NCBI RefSeq assembly: GCF_000233715.2
Contig: NC_021184.1
Coordinates: forward strand, 2,814,001 to 2,878,000
Origin: Desulfoscipio gibsoniae DSM 7213
GTDB taxonomy: Bacteria > Bacillota > Desulfotomaculia > Desulfotomaculales > Desulfallaceae
Direction: 5' to 3'
DNA: 64,000 nucleotides
This document shows positions 3,334 to 17,249 of the stretch, one piece after another. A program made the translations under genes and the position numbers. The notes below the pieces were generated by a model, which worked only from the letters and a program-made list of their open reading frames with translations, made no database searches and was not told the origin of the DNA. Numbering within the stretch: position 1 is the first letter of the stretch; the number at the start of each line of letters is the position of its first letter.

Positions 3334-3810
3334 ATGTTTAATGCCGTACTTTTTATTCTGGCGGCGGTGGCTTTAATTGTTTCCTGGCGCAAAGACCGGG
3401 AAAAAACCGGCAAAGCCCTGCAAATCGCCAAAAAGCAACTTTTGAATCTATTACCCAGCATGCTGGGGATTATCGGACTCATCGGCTTGATGCTGGCCCT
3501 GGTGCCCCGGGAGGTTATCGCCGGCTTTTTAGGCAACGACAGCCCGCTGGGCATCTTTATAATTTCTATTATCGGCTCTATTACTTTAATTCCGGCGTTT
3601 ATCGGCTTTCCCCTGGGCGCCTCATTAATTGATGCGGGGGCCAGCGTAACGGCGGTGGCCTGTTTTTTAACTACCGTGCTGATGGTGGGCGTGGTTACAG
3701 CGCCAATGGAAATAGAGCTTTTCGGCAAGCGGTTTACCATTTGGCGTAACCTATTGGGCCTGGTAATGGCGCTGGTAATAGGCATCATCATGGGGGTGGT
3801 ATTGCAATGA
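3334..3810 (+). CDS. Permease half, UPF0718/DUF318-like (first gene of pair)
   Basis: 158 residues with four or five membrane segments. It contains the loop LGNDSPLG and the helix ITLIPAFIGFPLGASLIDAG, whose small-residue, Gly/Pro-rich pattern resembles the permease family that includes ArsP. It overlaps the next gene by four bases (ATGA), so the two are translated together and probably form one transporter from two half-size chains; single-chain family members are about 300 residues. The substrate is unknown. The nearby PadR and Cys/His-rich protein hint at a metal or thiol-related compound (inference). Confidence 0.65.
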   Translation: MFNAVLFILAAVALIVSWRKDREKTGKALQIAKKQLLNLLPSMLGIIGLIGLMLALVPREVIAGFLGNDSPLGIFIISIIGSITLIPAFIGFPLGASLIDAGASVTAVACFLTTVLMVGVVTAPMEIELFGKRFTIWRNLLGLVMALVIGIIMGVVLQ

Positions 3811-4337
3811 AAAACCAGTGGAAAAAGTATCTGTTATTCCTGCTCGTGGTTATTGCCGACGGCTTGCTGTGGTATTACTACCCGGACCGGGGTGTGTCGG
3901 CCATCACCAGCGCCGCGGATTACCTGATCGAGATGCTTTTATTTATCCCGCCCATTTTAGTTCTGGTGGGGCTGCTGGATGTCTGGGTGCCGCGTAAAAT
4001 CGTGGAAAAGCACGTTGGTCCCGATTCCGGAATAAGAGGTGTTGTTATCTCCATCCTGGTGGCCACGGCGGCGGCCGGGCCCCTGTACGCCGGGTTTCCT
4101 GTGGCTTACGCTTTGCTCAAAAAAGGCTGCCGAATGACCAATGCGGTTATTTTCCTGGGCACCTGGGCCACTATTAAAATACCCATGCTAATGATGGAAA
4201 TTAAATTTATGGGTCTCTCTTTCGCTTTACTTCGCCTGGCCCTGACCCTGCCCGCTATTATCTTAACGGGTTACTTGCTGGAAAAATTGCTGGCCGGGCA
4301 ACCGCAAGCCGATGTGCCCCCGGCGGAACATGTGTAA
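3807..4337 (+). CDS. Permease half, UPF0718/DUF318-like (second gene of pair)
   Basis: 176 residues from an ATG overlapping the preceding stop. Several membrane helices are visible; the segment AAAGPLYAGFPVAYALLKKG followed by IFLGTWATIKIPMLMMEIKF repeats the conserved Gly-Pro-containing core seen in the first gene, as expected for the two pseudo-symmetric halves of this permease family. The tail (QPQADVPPAEHV) is cytosolic or disordered. It converges on a region of gene remnants. The assignment to a permease is firm; the transported compound is not known. Confidence 0.65.
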   Translation: MKNQWKKYLLFLLVVIADGLLWYYYPDRGVSAITSAADYLIEMLLFIPPILVLVGLLDVWVPRKIVEKHVGPDSGIRGVVISILVATAAAGPLYAGFPVAYALLKKGCRMTNAVIFLGTWATIKIPMLMMEIKFMGLSFALLRLALTLPAIILTGYLLEKLLAGQPQADVPPAEHV

Positions 4338-4735: not shown

Positions 4736-5185
4736 TCGTTCGGGGTTATCATAATGGATGTTAATGCACTGAAATATGTAAATGATAATTTTGGCCATGA
4801 AGCAGGGGATAAATTACTTGTTAAGGCTGCGAAAACAATAAGTAATAGTGTTAGACAGACGGATTATGTTTTTAGATTTGGGGGAGACGAATTTCTCGTT
4901 TTGTTACCTGAAGTAGATCATGATGATCTGGAAGTAATTAAACTAAGAATACAGGAACAAAACCATGTCCCTTCCAAGGAACAGCCTATAAGTGTGCATT
5001 TAAGTATCGGTACTTGCTCAACCTCAGAATTCGGTAAAGCACAGGATGTACTATCCTGTGCCGACAAGAAAATGTATGAGGATAAGCGAAAGTTCTATGA
5101 AAACGAAGGGAAAAACTTACTAAGAAATGATCAGTCTGATACTATTCAAAAAGGGCATGGTTCCTGTTGTAAAAATAACCGTTAA
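4736..5185 (+). pseudogene. GGDEF diguanylate cyclase domain, N-terminally truncated
   Basis: From 4739 the plus strand reads FGVIIMDVNALKYVNDNFGH, EAGD, then FRFGGDEFLVLLPE with an intact GGDEF signature, and ends ADKKMYEDKRKFY, the normal end of the domain. The N-terminal LTGLxNR part is absent. The residues an ORF finder would put before position 4739 are only the antisense of the HD-GYP remnant. GGDEF domains make cyclic-di-GMP. Without its N-terminus, a sensor domain or a ribosome site this copy is almost certainly dead. Its end runs 44 bases into the 3' end of asrC on the other strand. Confidence 0.8.
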
Positions 5186-6131
5186 AGTCCATAAATTCAG
5201 CTAACTGTGCAGTTTTTGTCAGGTCTACGCCATTTAATACTTCATCCTTAAAAACGTTATACCCGGTTCTGTCCACGATATAGCCCACGTGCTCCTTTGG
5301 TAAACTGCGATCGATGTGCTTTTCAATGTATTTATACATGTTCCTGATTACACTGAGTACAACATCCTCATCCACCCACTGTATAAAAGTGCGTGCCAGT
5401 CGCGGGTTCTTTTTTCCAGTACGTCCCATGATTACCAGCCGGTACAAGTTTTTCCCCCTGGTCCAGGCGGCATTAGGACAGGTAAGCACGCATTCTCCGC
5501 AGCCAAGGCATTGCTTTTCATCCCTTTCCACGCGGTAATTGACCATTTTCAGTGCCCCGGAGGAACGCTTGCGGCAATTTTCCACGCAGGCCCCGCAGGA
5601 AATACACCGGTTTGGATCATAAACCGGCTCAACCATGCCCAGAATCCCTATATCCTGCATATGGGCCTTAATACAGTCATTTGGACACCCCGATGCGGCA
5701 ATCTTCACATGAAAATTGTTCGGGTAAATAGTGCGTTCAATTTTATAGGCCAGGTCTGTGGTGTCATAATTAGCATAGGGACAGACCCGGCTGCCGACAC
5801 AGGCTGAAACGTTCCTGGTCCCTGCGGCCGGATATCCTGCGTCGGTGTTTTCAATAAAAACGCCAGTTTCTTGTTCCAATCCCCTGATTATCGGCTCTAT
5901 CAGTTTATTTACTTCATCCATTTTCACCATGGATATGCCGGGTACCTCGAAACCCTGACGGGTTGTTATATGCACGGTTCCGTTACCGAATTTTTGGGCC
6001 ACTTCCTTGATGATATCTAAATATTTAACGTCAAGATGACCGCCGGGGACCCTGATTCTAAGGGCGGTTATGCCTCTGTCCCGGGTAACACGATAGGCGT
6101 TCTTGATTATTTTTTTAGTGTTAACAGTCAT
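5142..6131 (-). CDS. asrC: Anaerobic sulfite reductase subunit C
   Basis: 329 residues, the catalytic sirohaem subunit of the NADH-linked sulfite reductase AsrABC, which reduces sulfite to sulfide in the cytoplasm. The sirohaem-[4Fe-4S] ligands are visible as CVGSRVC near residue 111 and SGCPNDC near 149. Two ferredoxin clusters follow: CISCGACVENC near 177 and CLGCGECVLTCP near 209. The N-terminal half carries the sulfite-binding region (HITTRQGFEVPGI). The length matches the family. The start has a GGGAGGAA ribosome site, and asrB lies 18 bases upstream in the same operon. Confidence 0.95.
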   Translation of the reverse strand: MTVNTKKIIKNAYRVTRDRGITALRIRVPGGHLDVKYLDIIKEVAQKFGNGTVHITTRQGFEVPGISMVKMDEVNKLIEPIIRGLEQETGVFIENTDAGYPAAGTRNVSACVGSRVCPYANYDTTDLAYKIERTIYPNNFHVKIAASGCPNDCIKAHMQDIGILGMVEPVYDPNRCISCGACVENCRKRSSGALKMVNYRVERDEKQCLGCGECVLTCPNAAWTRGKNLYRLVIMGRTGKKNPRLARTFIQWVDEDVVLSVIRNMYKYIEKHIDRSLPKEHVGYIVDRTGYNVFKDEVLNGVDLTKTAQLAEFMDFNGYFYNRNHALFE

Positions 6132-6149
6132 ATCATTATTCCTCCCCGG

Positions 6150-6932
6150 TTAATCAATCAAACCTTTGGCCCGTGTATAATTAAATACGGGCCCTTCCAG
6201 GCATACGTAGGTATCGTCTATTTTACAGTGGCCGCATTTTCCAATGCCGCAGCACATTTTTCTCTCAAAGGATACGGTAATGTTTTTTTCCGGTACGCCC
6301 AGGCCGAGAAATTCTTGCACTGTGAATTTCATCATCAAAGGAGGGCCAACTACTATTACTTCCACCTCATCCGGTTTTGCCAACTGCAATGACTTAACAT
6401 ACTGTGTTATCAACCCAACATTACCATGCCAATTGTCGTCTCCCCGGTCAACTGTTAAAATTACATTGAAATCTTGCTCCCACATTTTTAATTGGTCTGG
6501 GAAAAGCACATCCGCAGGACTTTTAAACCCGGCCAATAAGGTCAAACCACCATATTCCCGGCTGCGGTTCAACATGCTTTTTACCGGTGCCAACCCCGTG
6601 CCCCCCGCGGCCACAACCACTTCCTTGCCCCGGTATTTATCCATTAAAAACCCGTTGCCATAGGGGCCCCGTACAAAGATAACATCCCCTACTTTAAGCT
6701 GGTGCAGCACATTGGTTACCTTGCCCACCCGGCGGATGGTCATTTCGAACCAACCCTCGCCAAAATCGCTCACGGATATGGGGCATTCGCCCACTTTAGG
6801 CAGGGAAACTTCTACGAACTGGCCGCTGGTTGGTTTTATTTCGCTTTCCATGATGAAGGTATAGTCGACGGCCGTTTGTGGTTTGACACTGATAATTTTG
6901 GCACTTTGCGGCAAATACGGGTTAACAGTCAA
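6150..6932 (-). CDS. asrB: Anaerobic sulfite reductase subunit B (FAD/NAD-binding)
   Basis: 260 residues of ferredoxin-NADP reductase fold. The FAD-binding barrel comes first, with RGPYGNGF near residue 90; the NAD-binding half follows with VAAGGTGLAPVKSML near 107-121 and VVGPPLMMKF near 195. The C-terminal CCGIGKCGHCK and a later Cys (YVCLEGPVF) form the [2Fe-2S] site as in dihydroorotate dehydrogenase electron-transfer subunits. AsrB takes electrons from NADH and passes them to AsrA/AsrC. It starts two bases after the asrA stop, so translation is probably coupled. Confidence 0.93.
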   Translation of the reverse strand: MTVNPYLPQSAKIISVKPQTAVDYTFIMESEIKPTSGQFVEVSLPKVGECPISVSDFGEGWFEMTIRRVGKVTNVLHQLKVGDVIFVRGPYGNGFLMDKYRGKEVVVAAGGTGLAPVKSMLNRSREYGGLTLLAGFKSPADVLFPDQLKMWEQDFNVILTVDRGDDNWHGNVGLITQYVKSLQLAKPDEVEVIVVGPPLMMKFTVQEFLGLGVPEKNITVSFERKMCCGIGKCGHCKIDDTYVCLEGPVFNYTRAKGLID

Positions 6933-6934
6933 TG

Positions 6935-7948
6935 CTATTCACCTCCTGGGGAGCTTGACTTAAGCTTATTAACGCATTTAACAATGGAGATATACTCCGG
7001 GCAGATATCATCGCACCGGCCACAGCCAACACACATATGGTAGCCGAAACGCTTATGAAAATCATAAAACTTATGCATCACCTTAAACCGCATTCGGTCA
7101 CCCTGGTTATTTCTGAAAGCATGCCCTCCGGCCATATCAGTAAACCCATCAACCATACAGGAGGCCCATACCCGGCGCCGCTCGCCGGAATTGTCATTAT
7201 CGCGATAAAAGATATCCTGCATAGTAAAGCAACTGCATGTTGGGCAGACAAAATTGCACCGGCCGCATCCGGTACAGCGCAGTGTATATTCTTGCCACAG
7301 AGGGTTGTTGAGTATGTCGTTATCAATATCCATGTTTTGCGGCAGTTGTATTGTGATATTGTTCTTTTCCACAAAACGCGGGGTTATTTCCATGCTATCA
7401 TTAAAACCATTGAAATAGGCATCAAATTCGGGGTCCTTTATCTGGCAGGCAACAAAGCCTTCGGCAGGTCTTAGCAGCAATGAATAATCATCTGTTGCGT
7501 TTGTTCCCATAGCTACGCAAAAACAGTTGTCAAAACCTGCCCCACATTCCATCAGGATGAACTTAACTTTTTCCCGCCGCTGCTGATAATAATTATCCTT
7601 ATAGGGGCCGTTGTTGATAAAAATTTCATCCAGTCGTTTGAAAGCGTTAATATCACATGGACGTACAAAGATTAATATTTTATTAGTTTGTATGGCCGGC
7701 TGTTTGAACTCCTCTTCGGTAAAGTAAAATAGTGTTTCCACCGGCTTAAAAAGAGCTTCCTTGGCTGAATAAACAGTTTTTTGATTATACACAACTTGTT
7801 CAAATTTACTGATTTCAGCATATCCCACCAGGTCTGTACCTGCATAGGGGCCTTTCCCTTTCATATTTACCGGCGCAAAAACCCGGTATACCCGGCGCAA
7901 TTCTCGCAAAATGGCATTAAAATCTTCTATCTGTATTTTATAACCCAT
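6935..7948 (-). CDS. asrA: Anaerobic sulfite reductase subunit A (ferredoxin-like)
   Basis: 337 residues from the ATG at 7948, preceded by GGGAGGCGG; an upstream in-frame GTG would only add residues belonging to an hcp remnant. The N-terminal two thirds are the AsrA-type domain (IFVRPCDINAF, ECGAGFDNCFC). The C-terminal part has two [4Fe-4S] motifs, CTGCGRCNFVCPTC near residue 238 and CVGCGRCDDICPEY near 312. It relays electrons within AsrABC. It is the first gene of the operon. Its ATG overlaps the TAA that ends the hcp remnant (TAATG), so a leader translation could feed into it. Confidence 0.93.
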   Translation of the reverse strand: MGYKIQIEDFNAILRELRRVYRVFAPVNMKGKGPYAGTDLVGYAEISKFEQVVYNQKTVYSAKEALFKPVETLFYFTEEEFKQPAIQTNKILIFVRPCDINAFKRLDEIFINNGPYKDNYYQQRREKVKFILMECGAGFDNCFCVAMGTNATDDYSLLLRPAEGFVACQIKDPEFDAYFNGFNDSMEITPRFVEKNNITIQLPQNMDIDNDILNNPLWQEYTLRCTGCGRCNFVCPTCSCFTMQDIFYRDNDNSGERRRVWASCMVDGFTDMAGGHAFRNNQGDRMRFKVMHKFYDFHKRFGYHMCVGCGRCDDICPEYISIVKCVNKLKSSSPGGE

Positions 7949-8137
7949 TAGCCCGCCTCCCTGTGCCTTGTAGTTAATGATGCCGACCATAGCCGGTAAC
8001 TGCGTAATGCTTTGGCCCCTTCATAACCACCAACCAGGAAAATATGTTTGATTTTACCGGTTTTAACGGCATCCACAACCTTATCTGCTATGGCAGCCAG
8101 TTCCCCCAGCAGTCTGTTCACACTGATAACAAAACAT
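7948..8137 (-). pseudogene. hcp: Hybrid cluster protein (hcp) remnant with internal deletion
   Basis: An ATG at 8137 with GGAGG eleven bases upstream begins MFCYQCEQTAGGTGC, the diagnostic N-terminus of hybrid cluster protein (hydroxylamine reductase), but the frame stops after 18 codons (8081). In the +1 frame the DNA goes straight on as ELAAIADKVVDAVKTGKI, then KHIFLVGGYEGAKALRSY, a piece that lies hundreds of residues later in real Hcp. This frame ends in a TAA overlapping the asrA ATG. So a large internal deletion joined the first 15 codons to a late segment. The original ribosome site and probably the promoter now serve the asr operon (inference). Confidence 0.85.
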
Positions 8138-8213
8138 ATTTCTTGTTCCTCCTTTTATGTATGTTTACACTATATATTTGTTAGATATAATTTACCTTAT
8201 ATGTTAGCTGTTA

Positions 8214-8235
8214 AATATGAGATAGCTCACATATT
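8214..8235. promoter_or_regulatory. CRP/FNR-type palindrome upstream of hcp remnant/asr
   Basis: A 22-bp imperfect dyad of the form AATATG-n-GA....TC-n-CATATT contains TGAGA-N4-TCACA, the spacing used by FNR-class regulators. It lies about 80 bases before the hcp start. Regulators of this class control hcp and sulfite/nitrogen-oxide genes in anaerobes. Binding here is inference. Confidence 0.4.
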
Positions 8236-8283
8236 GTTTAGCGATTTGTCACAGATTACTTTAATCACATTAGATAACCTCTT

Positions 8284-8490
8284 TTATACGGCCACAAAAG
8301 CGATGGCACCTCCGGGCGGGCACAGTGTAATAATCCCTCGACGGTATATTTTTACGAAGTATTGTAATGCCCCAGTGATTACTCTTGTCGTTAAAGATCG
8401 TTCAAAGACTGGTGTTAGATGCGCTATTTCTCGGACGCACGGACTGACCCCATTTAGGACATTCCGGTAGGCCGGTGGGGCCCAACTCAT
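8284..8490. other. Unexplained block open in both strands
   Basis: Between 8284 and 8490 both strands stay open. The minus frame reads about 68 residues (…VREIAHLTPVFERSLTTRVI…, ending CPPGGAIAFVAV); the plus frame also stays open through most of it. Base composition is richer in G and C than the AT-rich flanks. Neither product is recognised and neither has a good ribosome site. It may be a remnant, a structured RNA or an inserted element; 8491-8928 holds nothing else I can support. Confidence 0.25.
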
Positions 8491-8928
8491 CTTTCAGGCA
8501 CCATCATTTAATTCAAGCCAAAAACTTTAAATGTTAATTTGCTAAAAATTATGATATTTTTAACATTATATATTACCGTTCGGCATTTATATTAAGCAAT
8601 ACAAGCACCTTTTGTTTCCATTACTAAAACCAAACAATATAATTACAGTATCATATAGTAAGGAAACATCATAAAGAGCATTATTGATGAGTTGTTTGAA
8701 ATGTTTAAGCACAGATTACATAATTACACCAAAAACGTTCCCTTTTTGAATGTAGCCAAGTATTTTTGGCGCTGTCGCTGGAAAGAGGGAAAAAATGTCT
8801 CACATTGTGGGCGGCGACGTTTTATAACCTCCTTCCAGTTAAAATACTTCATAACAACAGCAGTGGAAAGAGAATATGGGTTTACTGTATTTTTATCTTT
8901 AGAAAAATATACAAAGGGGGAATTGTTT

Positions 8929-9519
8929 ATGACTGAAAAACTCGAACATTTTGCAGGTTTTTTGCCATATGTACAACAAATGATGGGTGTTGAGTGCACA
9001 TTTGGCATTTCAGATCGAGAAAAATATATTGCCTATTTGCCTGGCAAAGAATTAGTACTCCCGTTAAAGGTTGGCGATCCAATTAAAGCCGGCTCCATGG
9101 CGGACAAGGTTATAACTGGAGGTCTACAAGCATCTAATCTTGTTGGAAAGGAAGTTTTTGGTATCCCTTATATGGGTATAGGGATACCAATAAAAGATGA
9201 CAATGGTAAGGTAATCGGTTCGCTAGTAGGGGGAATGCCTGTTACTGTTGAAGAAGATGTTAACCTTTTGATCGCAAGAATGACCGATGATTTGAAAGCT
9301 TTTCAATCCTTAATAATTAATATTGTTGCTACTATTCAAGAATATGCTGAAACTGTCAATAATCTATGTAATAGTGCAGAATTGCTCAAATCAAAAATGA
9401 ATGCTGTTAATCCAATCTTTGAAGTAATTAAAGACGTCCATCTAGAGAGCAGGGTCTTGGTGTTAATGTTGTTGCGGAAGAAAATAGAAGACATGCTACC
9501 AAGTCAAAAGTATCGTTAA
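8929..9519 (+). pseudogene. Chemotaxis-type sensor protein, frameshifted and truncated
   Basis: An ATG with AAAGGGGG eight bases upstream starts MTEKLEHFAGFLPYVQQMMG, followed by LPLKVGDPIKAG and GKEVFGIPYMGIGIP. This is the cytosolic sensing part of a small methyl-accepting-type protein common in Peptococcaceae. After KMNAVNPIFEVIKDV the frame breaks. The expected signalling helix is largely missing, and the +1 frame at about 9460-9510 still reads GVNVVAEENRRHATKSK, matching the family's GFNVVAEEIRRLATKSK. So one deletion and a frameshift have destroyed the kinase-control tip. A shortened 196-residue sensor-only product is possible but would not signal. Confidence 0.75.
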
Positions 9520-14923: not shown

Positions 14924-14976
14924 AAAGGCTATGATATTGACTATTTTTACAAAGTTGCTTGAACGGGGAGGTAAAA

Positions 14977-15360
14977 ATGGCCGCGGAAAAAACTGAAAAT
15001 GGTGCGAGTGTTTCTCTGGACAGAATGATCCAGCCTATGTTGCTTTTGCTTATTTTAAAAAAGCCGACCCACGGTTATGAACTTATCCAAAGCTTTAACG
15101 CTTTGCACGAAGGTGAAATTGTAGAACCGGGCACTATTTACCGGAACCTCCGGCGCATGGAAAAGGACGAATTTGTTGTATCGAGCTGGGAAGCTGCCGA
15201 GTCGGGGCCGGCCCGGAGGAAATATACCATTACCGGTAAGGGGTTGAAAGCTTTGCAAGAAGCGGTGCTAAAACTGGAACAACAGAAGAGACAAATTGAG
15301 GATTATTTGTCAGAATATAACAATTTGGTGACAAAGGGAGGGTACTCTGATGAAAACTGA
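14977..15360 (+). CDS. PadR-family transcriptional regulator (second copy)
   Basis: 127 residues from the ATG at 14977 with GGGGAGG five bases upstream. The winged helix shows as HGYELIQSFNALH, EPGTIYRNLRRMEKDEFV and RKYTITGKGLKAL, ending in a coiled dimerisation helix. It closely parallels the PadR at 1802 but lacks the Cys-rich arm. The gene overlaps the next one by 11 bases, so repressor and WtpA-like protein are co-translated. Autoregulation through the palindrome at 14667-14679 is likely (inference). The second gene copy and the shared element point to cross-talk between the two loci. Confidence 0.85.
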   Translation: MAAEKTENGASVSLDRMIQPMLLLLILKKPTHGYELIQSFNALHEGEIVEPGTIYRNLRRMEKDEFVVSSWEAAESGPARRKYTITGKGLKALQEAVLKLEQQKRQIEDYLSEYNNLVTKGGYSDEN

Positions 15361-16171
15361 CCCTAACGCGCTAAAAATACTGCATGCCGGCGCGCTGAGA
15401 AAGCCCATCAAAGAGTGCATCCATATCCTTTGGGAAAGATACCCCGATCTAAAGGTGGAACTGGATTACGCCGGTTCCCGGGCCTGCGCCAAAGCAGTGG
15501 CGGAAGGCAAAATTGTGGATGTAATTGCACTGGCGGATTACCAGGTGTTTAACGATTTTTTGATACCCCGGTTTGTTGACATGTCCTTTGTTTTTGCCAC
15601 CGATCAAATGGTGTTGGCCTTTGATGAATTTTCTACAGGCAGCAACCAAATCAACGGCCAAAACTGGATGGATGTACTGCTGGGCAATCCAACCATAAAG
15701 TACGCGCGTTCCGATCACCGTCTTGACCCTTGCGGTTACCGCACTTTAATACTGTGGCAGTTGGCAGAAGAATATTACCGTAGGCCTGGTTTATATCAAT
15801 TATTGGAAAATGGTTGGAGTAATTTGTATCCTAAATCCCTCGATCTGGCCGTGGCTCTGATGGAGGGTAAAATTGACTATGGTTTTGAGTACCTTTCCGT
15901 GGCCAAACAAATGGATTTTCTATATATACAGTTTCCGCCCGAGATTAATCTTAGCGACCCCCGTTTTGCAGATCATTACGCCCGGGCCAAAGTATCCATT
16001 GAGGGTAATTACCCCGGCCTGGAAACAGTAATCACGGGTGCTCCCATTGAATTCTCCGTGGCTATACCCAAAAACTCCAATCAAAAGGAATTGGCTCAAG
16101 AGTTTATTGATATTCTTACAGGGCCACGAGGAGAAGAAATATTGGAAACAAATGGGTTAATTCCATGTTAA
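15350..16171 (+). CDS. WtpA/ModA-like oxyanion-binding protein without signal peptide
   Basis: 273 residues of periplasmic-binding-protein fold, closest in pattern to the tungstate/molybdate protein WtpA: KILHAGALRKPIKE at 9-22, the YAGSRACAKAVAEGK loop, DVIALADYQVF, and DHRLDPCGYRTLILWQLAE near 123-141, where the DPCGYR stretch is a WtpA hallmark. Real WtpA/ModA proteins are secreted lipoproteins; this one starts MKTDPNALKILHAG with no signal sequence and is fixed by an 11-base overlap with padR. So it is predicted to be cytosolic and may act as an anion sensor or buffer rather than a transporter part. No permease or ATPase gene is adjacent. Confidence 0.75.
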   Translation: MKTDPNALKILHAGALRKPIKECIHILWERYPDLKVELDYAGSRACAKAVAEGKIVDVIALADYQVFNDFLIPRFVDMSFVFATDQMVLAFDEFSTGSNQINGQNWMDVLLGNPTIKYARSDHRLDPCGYRTLILWQLAEEYYRRPGLYQLLENGWSNLYPKSLDLAVALMEGKIDYGFEYLSVAKQMDFLYIQFPPEINLSDPRFADHYARAKVSIEGNYPGLETVITGAPIEFSVAIPKNSNQKELAQEFIDILTGPRGEEILETNGLIPC

Positions 16172-16230
16172 CAGGGTTTCACCGGCAAATTTAACACCAA
16201 ACGAAGGAAGATATTATTTCCATAGAATAA

Positions 16231-16250
16231 AAAATGGCAGCTGCCATTTT
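16231..16250. promoter_or_regulatory. Perfect 20-bp palindrome before the TauE/SafE gene
   Basis: AAAATGGCAG followed directly by its complement CTGCCATTTT, with no loop. A hairpin without a loop is less likely than a protein-binding dyad. It lies 31 bases before the TTG start of the exporter gene. It could also act as a weak terminator for the preceding gene. Confidence 0.45.
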
Positions 16251-16280
16251 GTTAAAATTAATAGAAAGAGGTGCATATAA

Positions 16281-17249
16281 TTGTTTTTCCCCGTTTCCGG
16301 TGTGGAAATTAATCCGCTGATCCCCCCGCTGGTGGCTTTTATTGTCTCGTCAATAACCGCCTCCGCCGGAGTGTCCGGCGCATTTTTACTGTTGCCTTTT
16401 CAGGTAAGTGTGCTGCATTACACCAGCCCTTCGGTCAGCCCAACCAATTTGATTTATAATATAGTGGCTATTCCAGGTGGTTTATACAGGTTTATTAAAG
16501 AGGGGCGAATGGCCTGGCCGCTGACCTGGGTAGTATCTATCGGTACTTTACCGGGAGTTTTCTTGGGTTCATGGGTGAGGATAGAGTATCTGCCCGATCC
16601 CCGTTCGTTTAAATTATTCATGGGCGGCGTATTGCTGTATCTGGGAATCAAAATAATCACCGAGTTTACCGGCGGCTCTAAAAAACAAAAGGCGCAAAAT
16701 AAAGCGCTAGAGCAAAAGTTTAAAGAACGGGTAGCTAAGATTAAGGCAGAAAGCAACCAAAAAATAGCAGCCGGGCTGCCGGCTGACGCTGTGGTGAAAA
16801 CCAAAAGCTTTTCTATGACTAAGATTGAATATGAATTCTGGGGAGAGACTTACTCTTTCAGCACCGTGACCATTTTCACGCTGGCACTGGCGGTGGGATT
16901 AATCGGTGGCATCTACGGTATTGGCGGTGGCGCTATCATTGCTCCATTTTGTGTTTCTATTCTGGGTCTGCCCGTTTACACCGTAGCCGGGGCGGCTCTG
17001 GCAGGGACGTTCCTTACCTCCATAGCGGGAGTGATATTTTACTCCATTTTAGCAATGACCGCCGTGGGCGCGTCCGCCAATGTGGCACCCGACTGGGCGC
17101 TGGGTGCGCTGTTCGGGGTCGGCGGCCTGCTCGGGACATACTGCGGCGCGTATATTCAAAAATATTTAAAAGAGAACATTGTCAAGGTAATCATGGCAGC
17201 CTTAATTTTGTTCCTCGCACTGCAGTACATTGTTCAGTTCTTCCTTTAA
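16281..17249 (+). CDS. TauE/SafE-family anion permease
   Basis: 322 residues from a TTG with AAAGAGGTG eight bases upstream. Eight or so membrane helices lie in two repeats, each with the family's Gly-rich core (FIVSSITASAGVSGAFLLLP in the first, LIGGIYGIGGGAIIAPF in the second), separated by a charged cytosolic loop of about 60 residues rich in Lys and Gln (130-185). The family exports sulfite, sulfoacetate or related C1/C2 sulfonates and other anions. The upstream WtpA-like and PadR genes make an oxyanion substrate plausible. In a sulfite-reducing cell sulfite export is attractive but unproven. Confidence 0.85.
   Translation: MFFPVSGVEINPLIPPLVAFIVSSITASAGVSGAFLLLPFQVSVLHYTSPSVSPTNLIYNIVAIPGGLYRFIKEGRMAWPLTWVVSIGTLPGVFLGSWVRIEYLPDPRSFKLFMGGVLLYLGIKIITEFTGGSKKQKAQNKALEQKFKERVAKIKAESNQKIAAGLPADAVVKTKSFSMTKIEYEFWGETYSFSTVTIFTLALAVGLIGGIYGIGGGAIIAPFCVSILGLPVYTVAGAALAGTFLTSIAGVIFYSILAMTAVGASANVAPDWALGALFGVGGLLGTYCGAYIQKYLKENIVKVIMAALILFLALQYIVQFFL

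Follow-up and report, generated by a model that had tools for sequence, protein, structure and literature searches.

The asrABC operon

The 64-kb window analysed here (the whole stretch of DNA under study) is part of the single 4,855,529-bp contig of Desulfoscipio gibsoniae, a species also known as Desulfotomaculum gibsoniae, Desulfoscipio being the present name of the genus. The three subunits of the anaerobic sulfite reductase AsrABC are encoded in order on its minus strand, and each scored above the curated NCBIfam cut-off: asrA at 6935-7948 (TIGR02910, 478 bits against a cut-off of 323), asrB at 6150-6932 (TIGR02911, 362 bits against 289) and asrC, sulfite reductase subunit C, at 5142-6131 (TIGR02912, 461 bits against 324). 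The asrA start agrees with the starts in relatives, and a ribosome site of its own, GGGAGG, was read from the sequence at 7961-7956.

An hcp relic directly upstream of asrA

Minus-strand positions 8137-7996, directly upstream of asrA, hold a relic of hcp in which the first 15 codons of the gene are fused to about 33 late codons. An intact short hcp of 427 aa is located elsewhere in the genome (G000:C1:2236825-2238108), and comparison with it delimited a start segment at 8093-8137 (MFCYQCEQTAGGTGC, with its ATG at 8137) and a late segment at 7996-8094, which corresponds approximately to residues 260-292 and lies one frame off. The former hcp ribosome-binding site, AGGAGG, was read at 8148-8153. 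When a 322-nt stretch was searched against the DNA of its own genome, the promoter and start piece matched the intact hcp at 72% (E 1.5e-12) and the late segment at 75% (E 6.4e-11); tblastn with the intact Hcp protein recovered residues 1-22 at 77% (E 3e-4) and residues 260-292 at 85% (E 7e-12). Because two separate pieces match the intact gene significantly, the likeness is beyond chance.

The first junction leads from codon 15 to codon 261 with one extra base, an internal loss of about 734 nt relative to the intact hcp that is accompanied by a shift of frame. This two-piece match bears out the first-pass annotation of the window, which had described the hcp start and a late segment as fused by a deletion. 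Near 7996, at a second junction, hcp similarity stops and the remainder of the gene is gone, so that codons 16-259 (approximately) and 293-427 are missing. The 47 nt between this junction and asrA (7949-7995) are without recognised hcp similarity and are perhaps the old asrA leader. The intact gene resembles the relic in its box (TGTGAGCTATATCATA), in AAGGTAAATTATAT and in its start; it differs in being complete and in not adjoining asr, whereas the relic is frame-shifted and about 380 codons short. With similarity present in order and frame 0 ending after 18 codons, the full protein cannot be encoded, and the stretch was classed as an hcp pseudogene of the short type.

Because the relic is frame-shifted, translation from the hcp start could yield no more than a peptide of 18 codons (MFCYQCEQTAGGTGCHSR and a stop, 8137-8081, frame 0). 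This peptide had been anticipated in the first pass, and the ATG at 8137, the AGGAGG and the frame 0 stop ending at 8081 are all in place. The +1 frame reads late hcp (IADKVVDAVKTGKIKHIFLVGGYEGAKALRSYR) and stays open until a TAA at 7950-7948, which overlaps the asrA ATG (7948-7946) as had been stated earlier. A GTG-started frame of 57 codons over the late hcp segment (8121-7951) was considered and dropped because no ribosome site precedes it. A second genome with the relic was not found among the related genomes searched.

The retained promoter

Upstream of the relic start, a CRP/FNR-type operator (TGTGAGCTATCTCATA) is located on the minus strand at 8216-8231. It is a TGTGA-N6-TCAY palindrome, a pattern in which the first base was allowed to be T or C, and it is also present in related hcp loci. 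A -10-like hexamer, TAAATT, follows at 8194-8189, 32 bp from the operator (centre to centre). Class II CRP/FNR activator sites lie about 31-32 bp upstream of the -10, centre to centre; in this sequence both the palindrome and the 32-bp spacing are present. A second TGTGA half-site is present at 8249-8253 (minus strand), and in several related hcp loci similar half-sites were seen by eye ahead of the box. Four of the six bases of the hexamer match, and the same hexamer precedes the intact hcp, within a sequence, AAGGTAAATTATAT, that is identical in the two places. Box, spacing and AAGGTAAATTATAT have thus been kept between relic and intact gene, and their surroundings have diverged. The range originally annotated (7948-8137) leaves out both promoter and operator (8253-8189).

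A consensus scan of the minus strand returned one promoter-like site, 8214-8187, which overlaps the box and -10 region, and none between 8187 and asrA. For this reason asrABC probably uses the relic promoter, and the retained hcp promoter is, judged from the sequence, the most likely promoter of asrABC. The earlier proposal that asr inherited these hcp elements is supported as regards their retention: start, ribosome site and promoter, with its CRP/FNR-type box, are all still present. An independent asr promoter inside the relic, which would have spoken against that proposal, was looked for and rejected, since the same scan gives none on the minus strand. A Rex site was rejected as well: the Rex consensus has an A after TGTGA and a T before TCACA, and the box has neither; no paper joining hcp, asrABC and Rex was found in a literature search of partial coverage. 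The case for the box is its position and conservation, not rarity, as the genome has the pattern at 14 places (about half as many in the control) and the window has it twice, where 16 of 100 window shuffles reach two matches.

The box before hcp and asrA in relatives

In 23/26 related hcp loci the box lies no more than 250 bp from the start, against a mean of 0.04 and a maximum of 1 in 500 first-order random sequence sets. These 26 loci were counted out of 29, with L159, L160 and L161 left out because the script did not find their start; an earlier count on 19 chosen loci gave 17/19. The loci without a box are L144 (for which 64 nt of upstream sequence were available), L154 and L158. Boxes are located at -172 to -199 in L151, L152 and L156 and at -78 to -111 in the others.

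A close asrA is present in 22 of the 113 genomes of the order, this genome included. Among the 21 other loci, the box precedes asrA in eight (control mean 0.05, maximum 1) and is absent from 13; the upstream sequence was short in G073 (523 nt) and in G014 (1744 nt). Further contigs (L054-L132) gave 41/79 (mononucleotide shuffles, mean 0.20, maximum 4), and 39/73, mainly clostridial, after removing six contigs shared with the order loci; several of these are strains or species of close kinship. Across 17 hcp, 8 order asr and 39 other asr loci, the best -10 match peaks 32 bp from the box (centre to centre). No paper on a shared asrA box or on an upstream CRP/FNR gene was found in a literature search of partial coverage. 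The closest asrA, that of Desulfotruncus arcticus (77%), lacks both a box in the 250 bp before it and an hcp in the 6.5 kb examined upstream, and no close asrA was found in six other genomes of the genus.

Gene neighbourhoods of hcp and asr

An hcp gene adjoins asrABC in 5/21 order loci, upstream in G056 and G039 and downstream of asrC in G038, G087 and G080. An hcp end within 500 nt upstream of asrA was found in 3/79 contigs (L064, L077 and L090, of which two come from a single MAG). The neighbour test covered 91 asr loci (12 of the order and 79 contigs), with hcp anywhere in the examined DNA in 12, and the conclusions on hcp are drawn from the 427-aa query alone. The hcp-asrABC tandems (G056, G039, L064, L077 and L090) are like the window in having hcp on the same strand as asrA and at most 500 nt ahead of it; they differ from it in that their hcp, judged by the matched length, is intact or almost intact and that in G056 a second box precedes asrA. 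Relatives with hcp beside asr under separate promoters had been named in the first pass as evidence against its reading, and this is partly the case: in G056 hcp and asrA adjoin, each with a box of its own; in G039, where the genes likewise adjoin, a box was found only before hcp.

A genome of the same family, G008, has an intact hcp (88%) with a box. Some 190 nt beyond this hcp lies a fragment of asrA that is about 75 codons long and contains a stop. Gene order and the box before hcp are as in the window; the decayed partner there is asrA. This broken asrA (L168 3848-3621, G008:C124) is a mirror image of the window, and neither asrB nor asrC was found on its 8.2-kb contig.

A trio of genes for a PadR regulator, a solute-binding protein and a TauE/SafE exporter (Pfam) is located at 14959-17249, 6.8 kb from the relic, and is perhaps a sulfite or oxyanion unit. 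In D. arcticus the trio (81, 89 and 95% identity) lies 4 kb from hcp, and in both genomes it points away from hcp. G056 has a PadR gene paired with one for a solute-binding protein (45% and 52%) ahead of hcp-asrABC, on the same strand. The PadR of 1787-2209 has counterparts adjoining hcp in 6/6 genomes of another genus, in 4/6 of which a permease like that of 3807-4337 is also near hcp. From this synteny with hcp in relatives, the relic is probably in an old hcp neighbourhood. The window segment 1787-4337 as a whole comprises PadR, a small protein rich in Cys and His, and two half-length permeases, a set that recurs beside hcp in that other genus; the half-length permeases belong to the ArsP_1 family, one of them just under the cut-off.

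Probable decay of hcp in place and its alternatives

We consider it likely that hcp decayed in place before asrABC and that its surviving promoter drives asrABC, with the kind of control kept. A short (427-residue) hcp would have stood before asrABC and lost about 734 nt from its interior, and another deletion would have joined what was left of hcp to the asrA leader; both steps can be read from the junctions. The hcp promoter would have survived as the most likely asrABC promoter, at which a CRP/FNR activator may bind TGTGAGCTATCTCATA at about -41.5, as the observed geometry suggests, and bring RNA polymerase to the -10 (8194-8189). The old hcp site may start the 18-residue peptide, and asrA would be started from its own ribosome site. 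The collapse most likely left asrABC under its customary kind of control, since the same box stands before asrA in relatives and hcp is an old neighbour. That hcp probably collapsed in place is argued by the asrA box elsewhere, by the hcp-asrABC tandems and by the reverse decay in G008. The first-pass annotation had suggested that the deletion shifted sulfite reductase to nitrogen-oxide/redox control, which is not supported, given the box, spacing peak and hcp neighbours of asrA in relatives; as far as these sequences tell, asr carries such control, at times with hcp as neighbour, without any deletion.

The main doubt comes from D. arcticus, whose asrA, the nearest, is without box or adjoining hcp, and from the genus, which is otherwise without a close asrA. 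On these grounds asrABC may have come by transfer, a recent insertion behind hcp being possible, and room may be left for a capture, in which asrABC was once under a different promoter and control until the deletion brought it under the hcp promoter and shifted it to nitrogen-oxide control. We regard such a capture as unlikely, given that the same box and spacing are found before asrA in many relatives, that hcp-asrABC tandems occur in relatives and that hcp stands before a broken asrA in the family.

It is still less probable that the relic is inert, that is, that a promoter missed by the scan (one for another sigma factor or with a weak consensus) drives asrABC and that the hcp promoter is a fossil. 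The four-of-six -10, the number of promoter-like sites in the scan (4 against 3.1 in shuffles, which is no excess) and a box that is not improbable in the window would all allow it; against it, box, spacing and AAGGTAAATTATAT were kept amid divergence, and the intact hcp shows the same imperfect hexamer.

An RNA element in the leader was rejected, as its folding is ordinary, no better than that of shuffles (z -0.90), and no Rfam match was obtained in 5000-9500. With the relic found in one genome, these results do not mark the leader as an attenuator or leader peptide, and it is very improbable that the 18-codon frame, intact as it is together with its ribosome site and with Cys at 3 of 18 codons, is a working leader peptide tying asrABC to cysteine supply or ribosome pausing.

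Decay in place could be extended, tentatively and with considerable reserve, to a wider picture in which hcp and asrABC form one interchangeable module for N-oxides and sulfite or nitrite, shared by Clostridia and Desulfotomaculum-like bacteria under one class II box. D. gibsoniae would then have dropped hcp and kept the promoter and the 18-codon, Cys-containing leader as the sole, working control of asrABC, and G008 would have dropped asr.

Possible regulator and signal

A CRP/FNR regulator and an NO or nitrite signal may act on asrABC. Judged by its RET helix, the best regulator candidate is G000:C1:1460113-1460790, for which the best NCBIfam match is CRP, below the cut-off. Among 16 genomes of the family, this hcp type is present in 12 and the candidate regulator in 13, with agreement in 15/16 (not corrected for kinship). 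No CRP/FNR gene was found near asr or hcp in 12 order asr loci (both strands) and 19 hcp loci. Of the further contigs, 49/79 have a same-strand CRP/FNR gene whose end lies no more than 2 kb before asrA, and 48 of these 49 show the R-E/Q helix pattern; this test used plus-strand asrA loci only, and the both-strand test covered order loci other than L221-L229. The R-E/Q helix residues were linked to G3 and A6 of the site by Rodionov et al. (PMC1274295).

The HcpR regulon described for Desulfovibrio by the same authors has a CRP-like motif, wTGTGAnnnnnnTCACAw (PMC1274295, PMC545781). It is like the present case in motif type, in having hcp as target and in the activation predicted for sites that overlap the -35 or lie upstream of it; it differs in that it was described for Desulfovibrio (PMC1274295, PMC545781), the regulator here being a candidate that is not identified as HcpR. 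The term asr does not occur in the searched portions of these two texts. A literature search of partial coverage for a link between asr and HcpR gave one relevant paper, on Acididesulfobacillus acetoxydans, in which nitrate raises asrABC 29-fold and hcp 30-fold (PMC10949509). AsrABC and Hcp thus rise together under nitrate in that bacterium; unlike in the window, their genes lie apart (DEACI_4025-4027 and DEACI_0275), and the portion of the text searched contains no promoter analysis (PMC10949509).

A pseudogene that persists as promoter or leader of downstream genes is a known outcome of operon decay. Less known, and testable, is a CRP/FNR class II box common to asrABC and hcp across much of Clostridia and relatives, and this wider box is a better lead than the relic itself. 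If it holds, AsrABC would be part of the nitrite/NO response in these bacteria, which would bear on those that perform nitrite ammonification without a recognised nitrite reductase. Such a role would fit the nitrate induction and the suspected nitrite reductase role described for A. acetoxydans (PMC10949509).

Origin of the relic and other hcp copies

The site of the intact hcp shares its surroundings with G001. The relic is identical to its own genome's intact hcp at 107/140 nt and to the hcp of G010 at 112/140 nt, and a tree of these 140 positions places it beside the hcp of G002 and G005 with weak support (68-73). A recent duplication of the present intact hcp was considered as a possible source of the relic, but the identity of only 107/140 and the closer G010 do not favour it. 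A common origin with the G008 locus is not supported by this tree, in which the relic does not group with the G008 hcp; the tandem of G008 may have arisen independently.

Eight stretches of this genome match the hcp Pfam family, which thus has several members here besides the intact gene. One of them, G000:C1:4792455-4792586 (L052 6560-6456), where the match spans 45 positions, is a second hcp relic of the same type, which covers residues 325-359 at 89%, stands alone and adjoins a gene whose product, named by eye, is flavodiiron-like.
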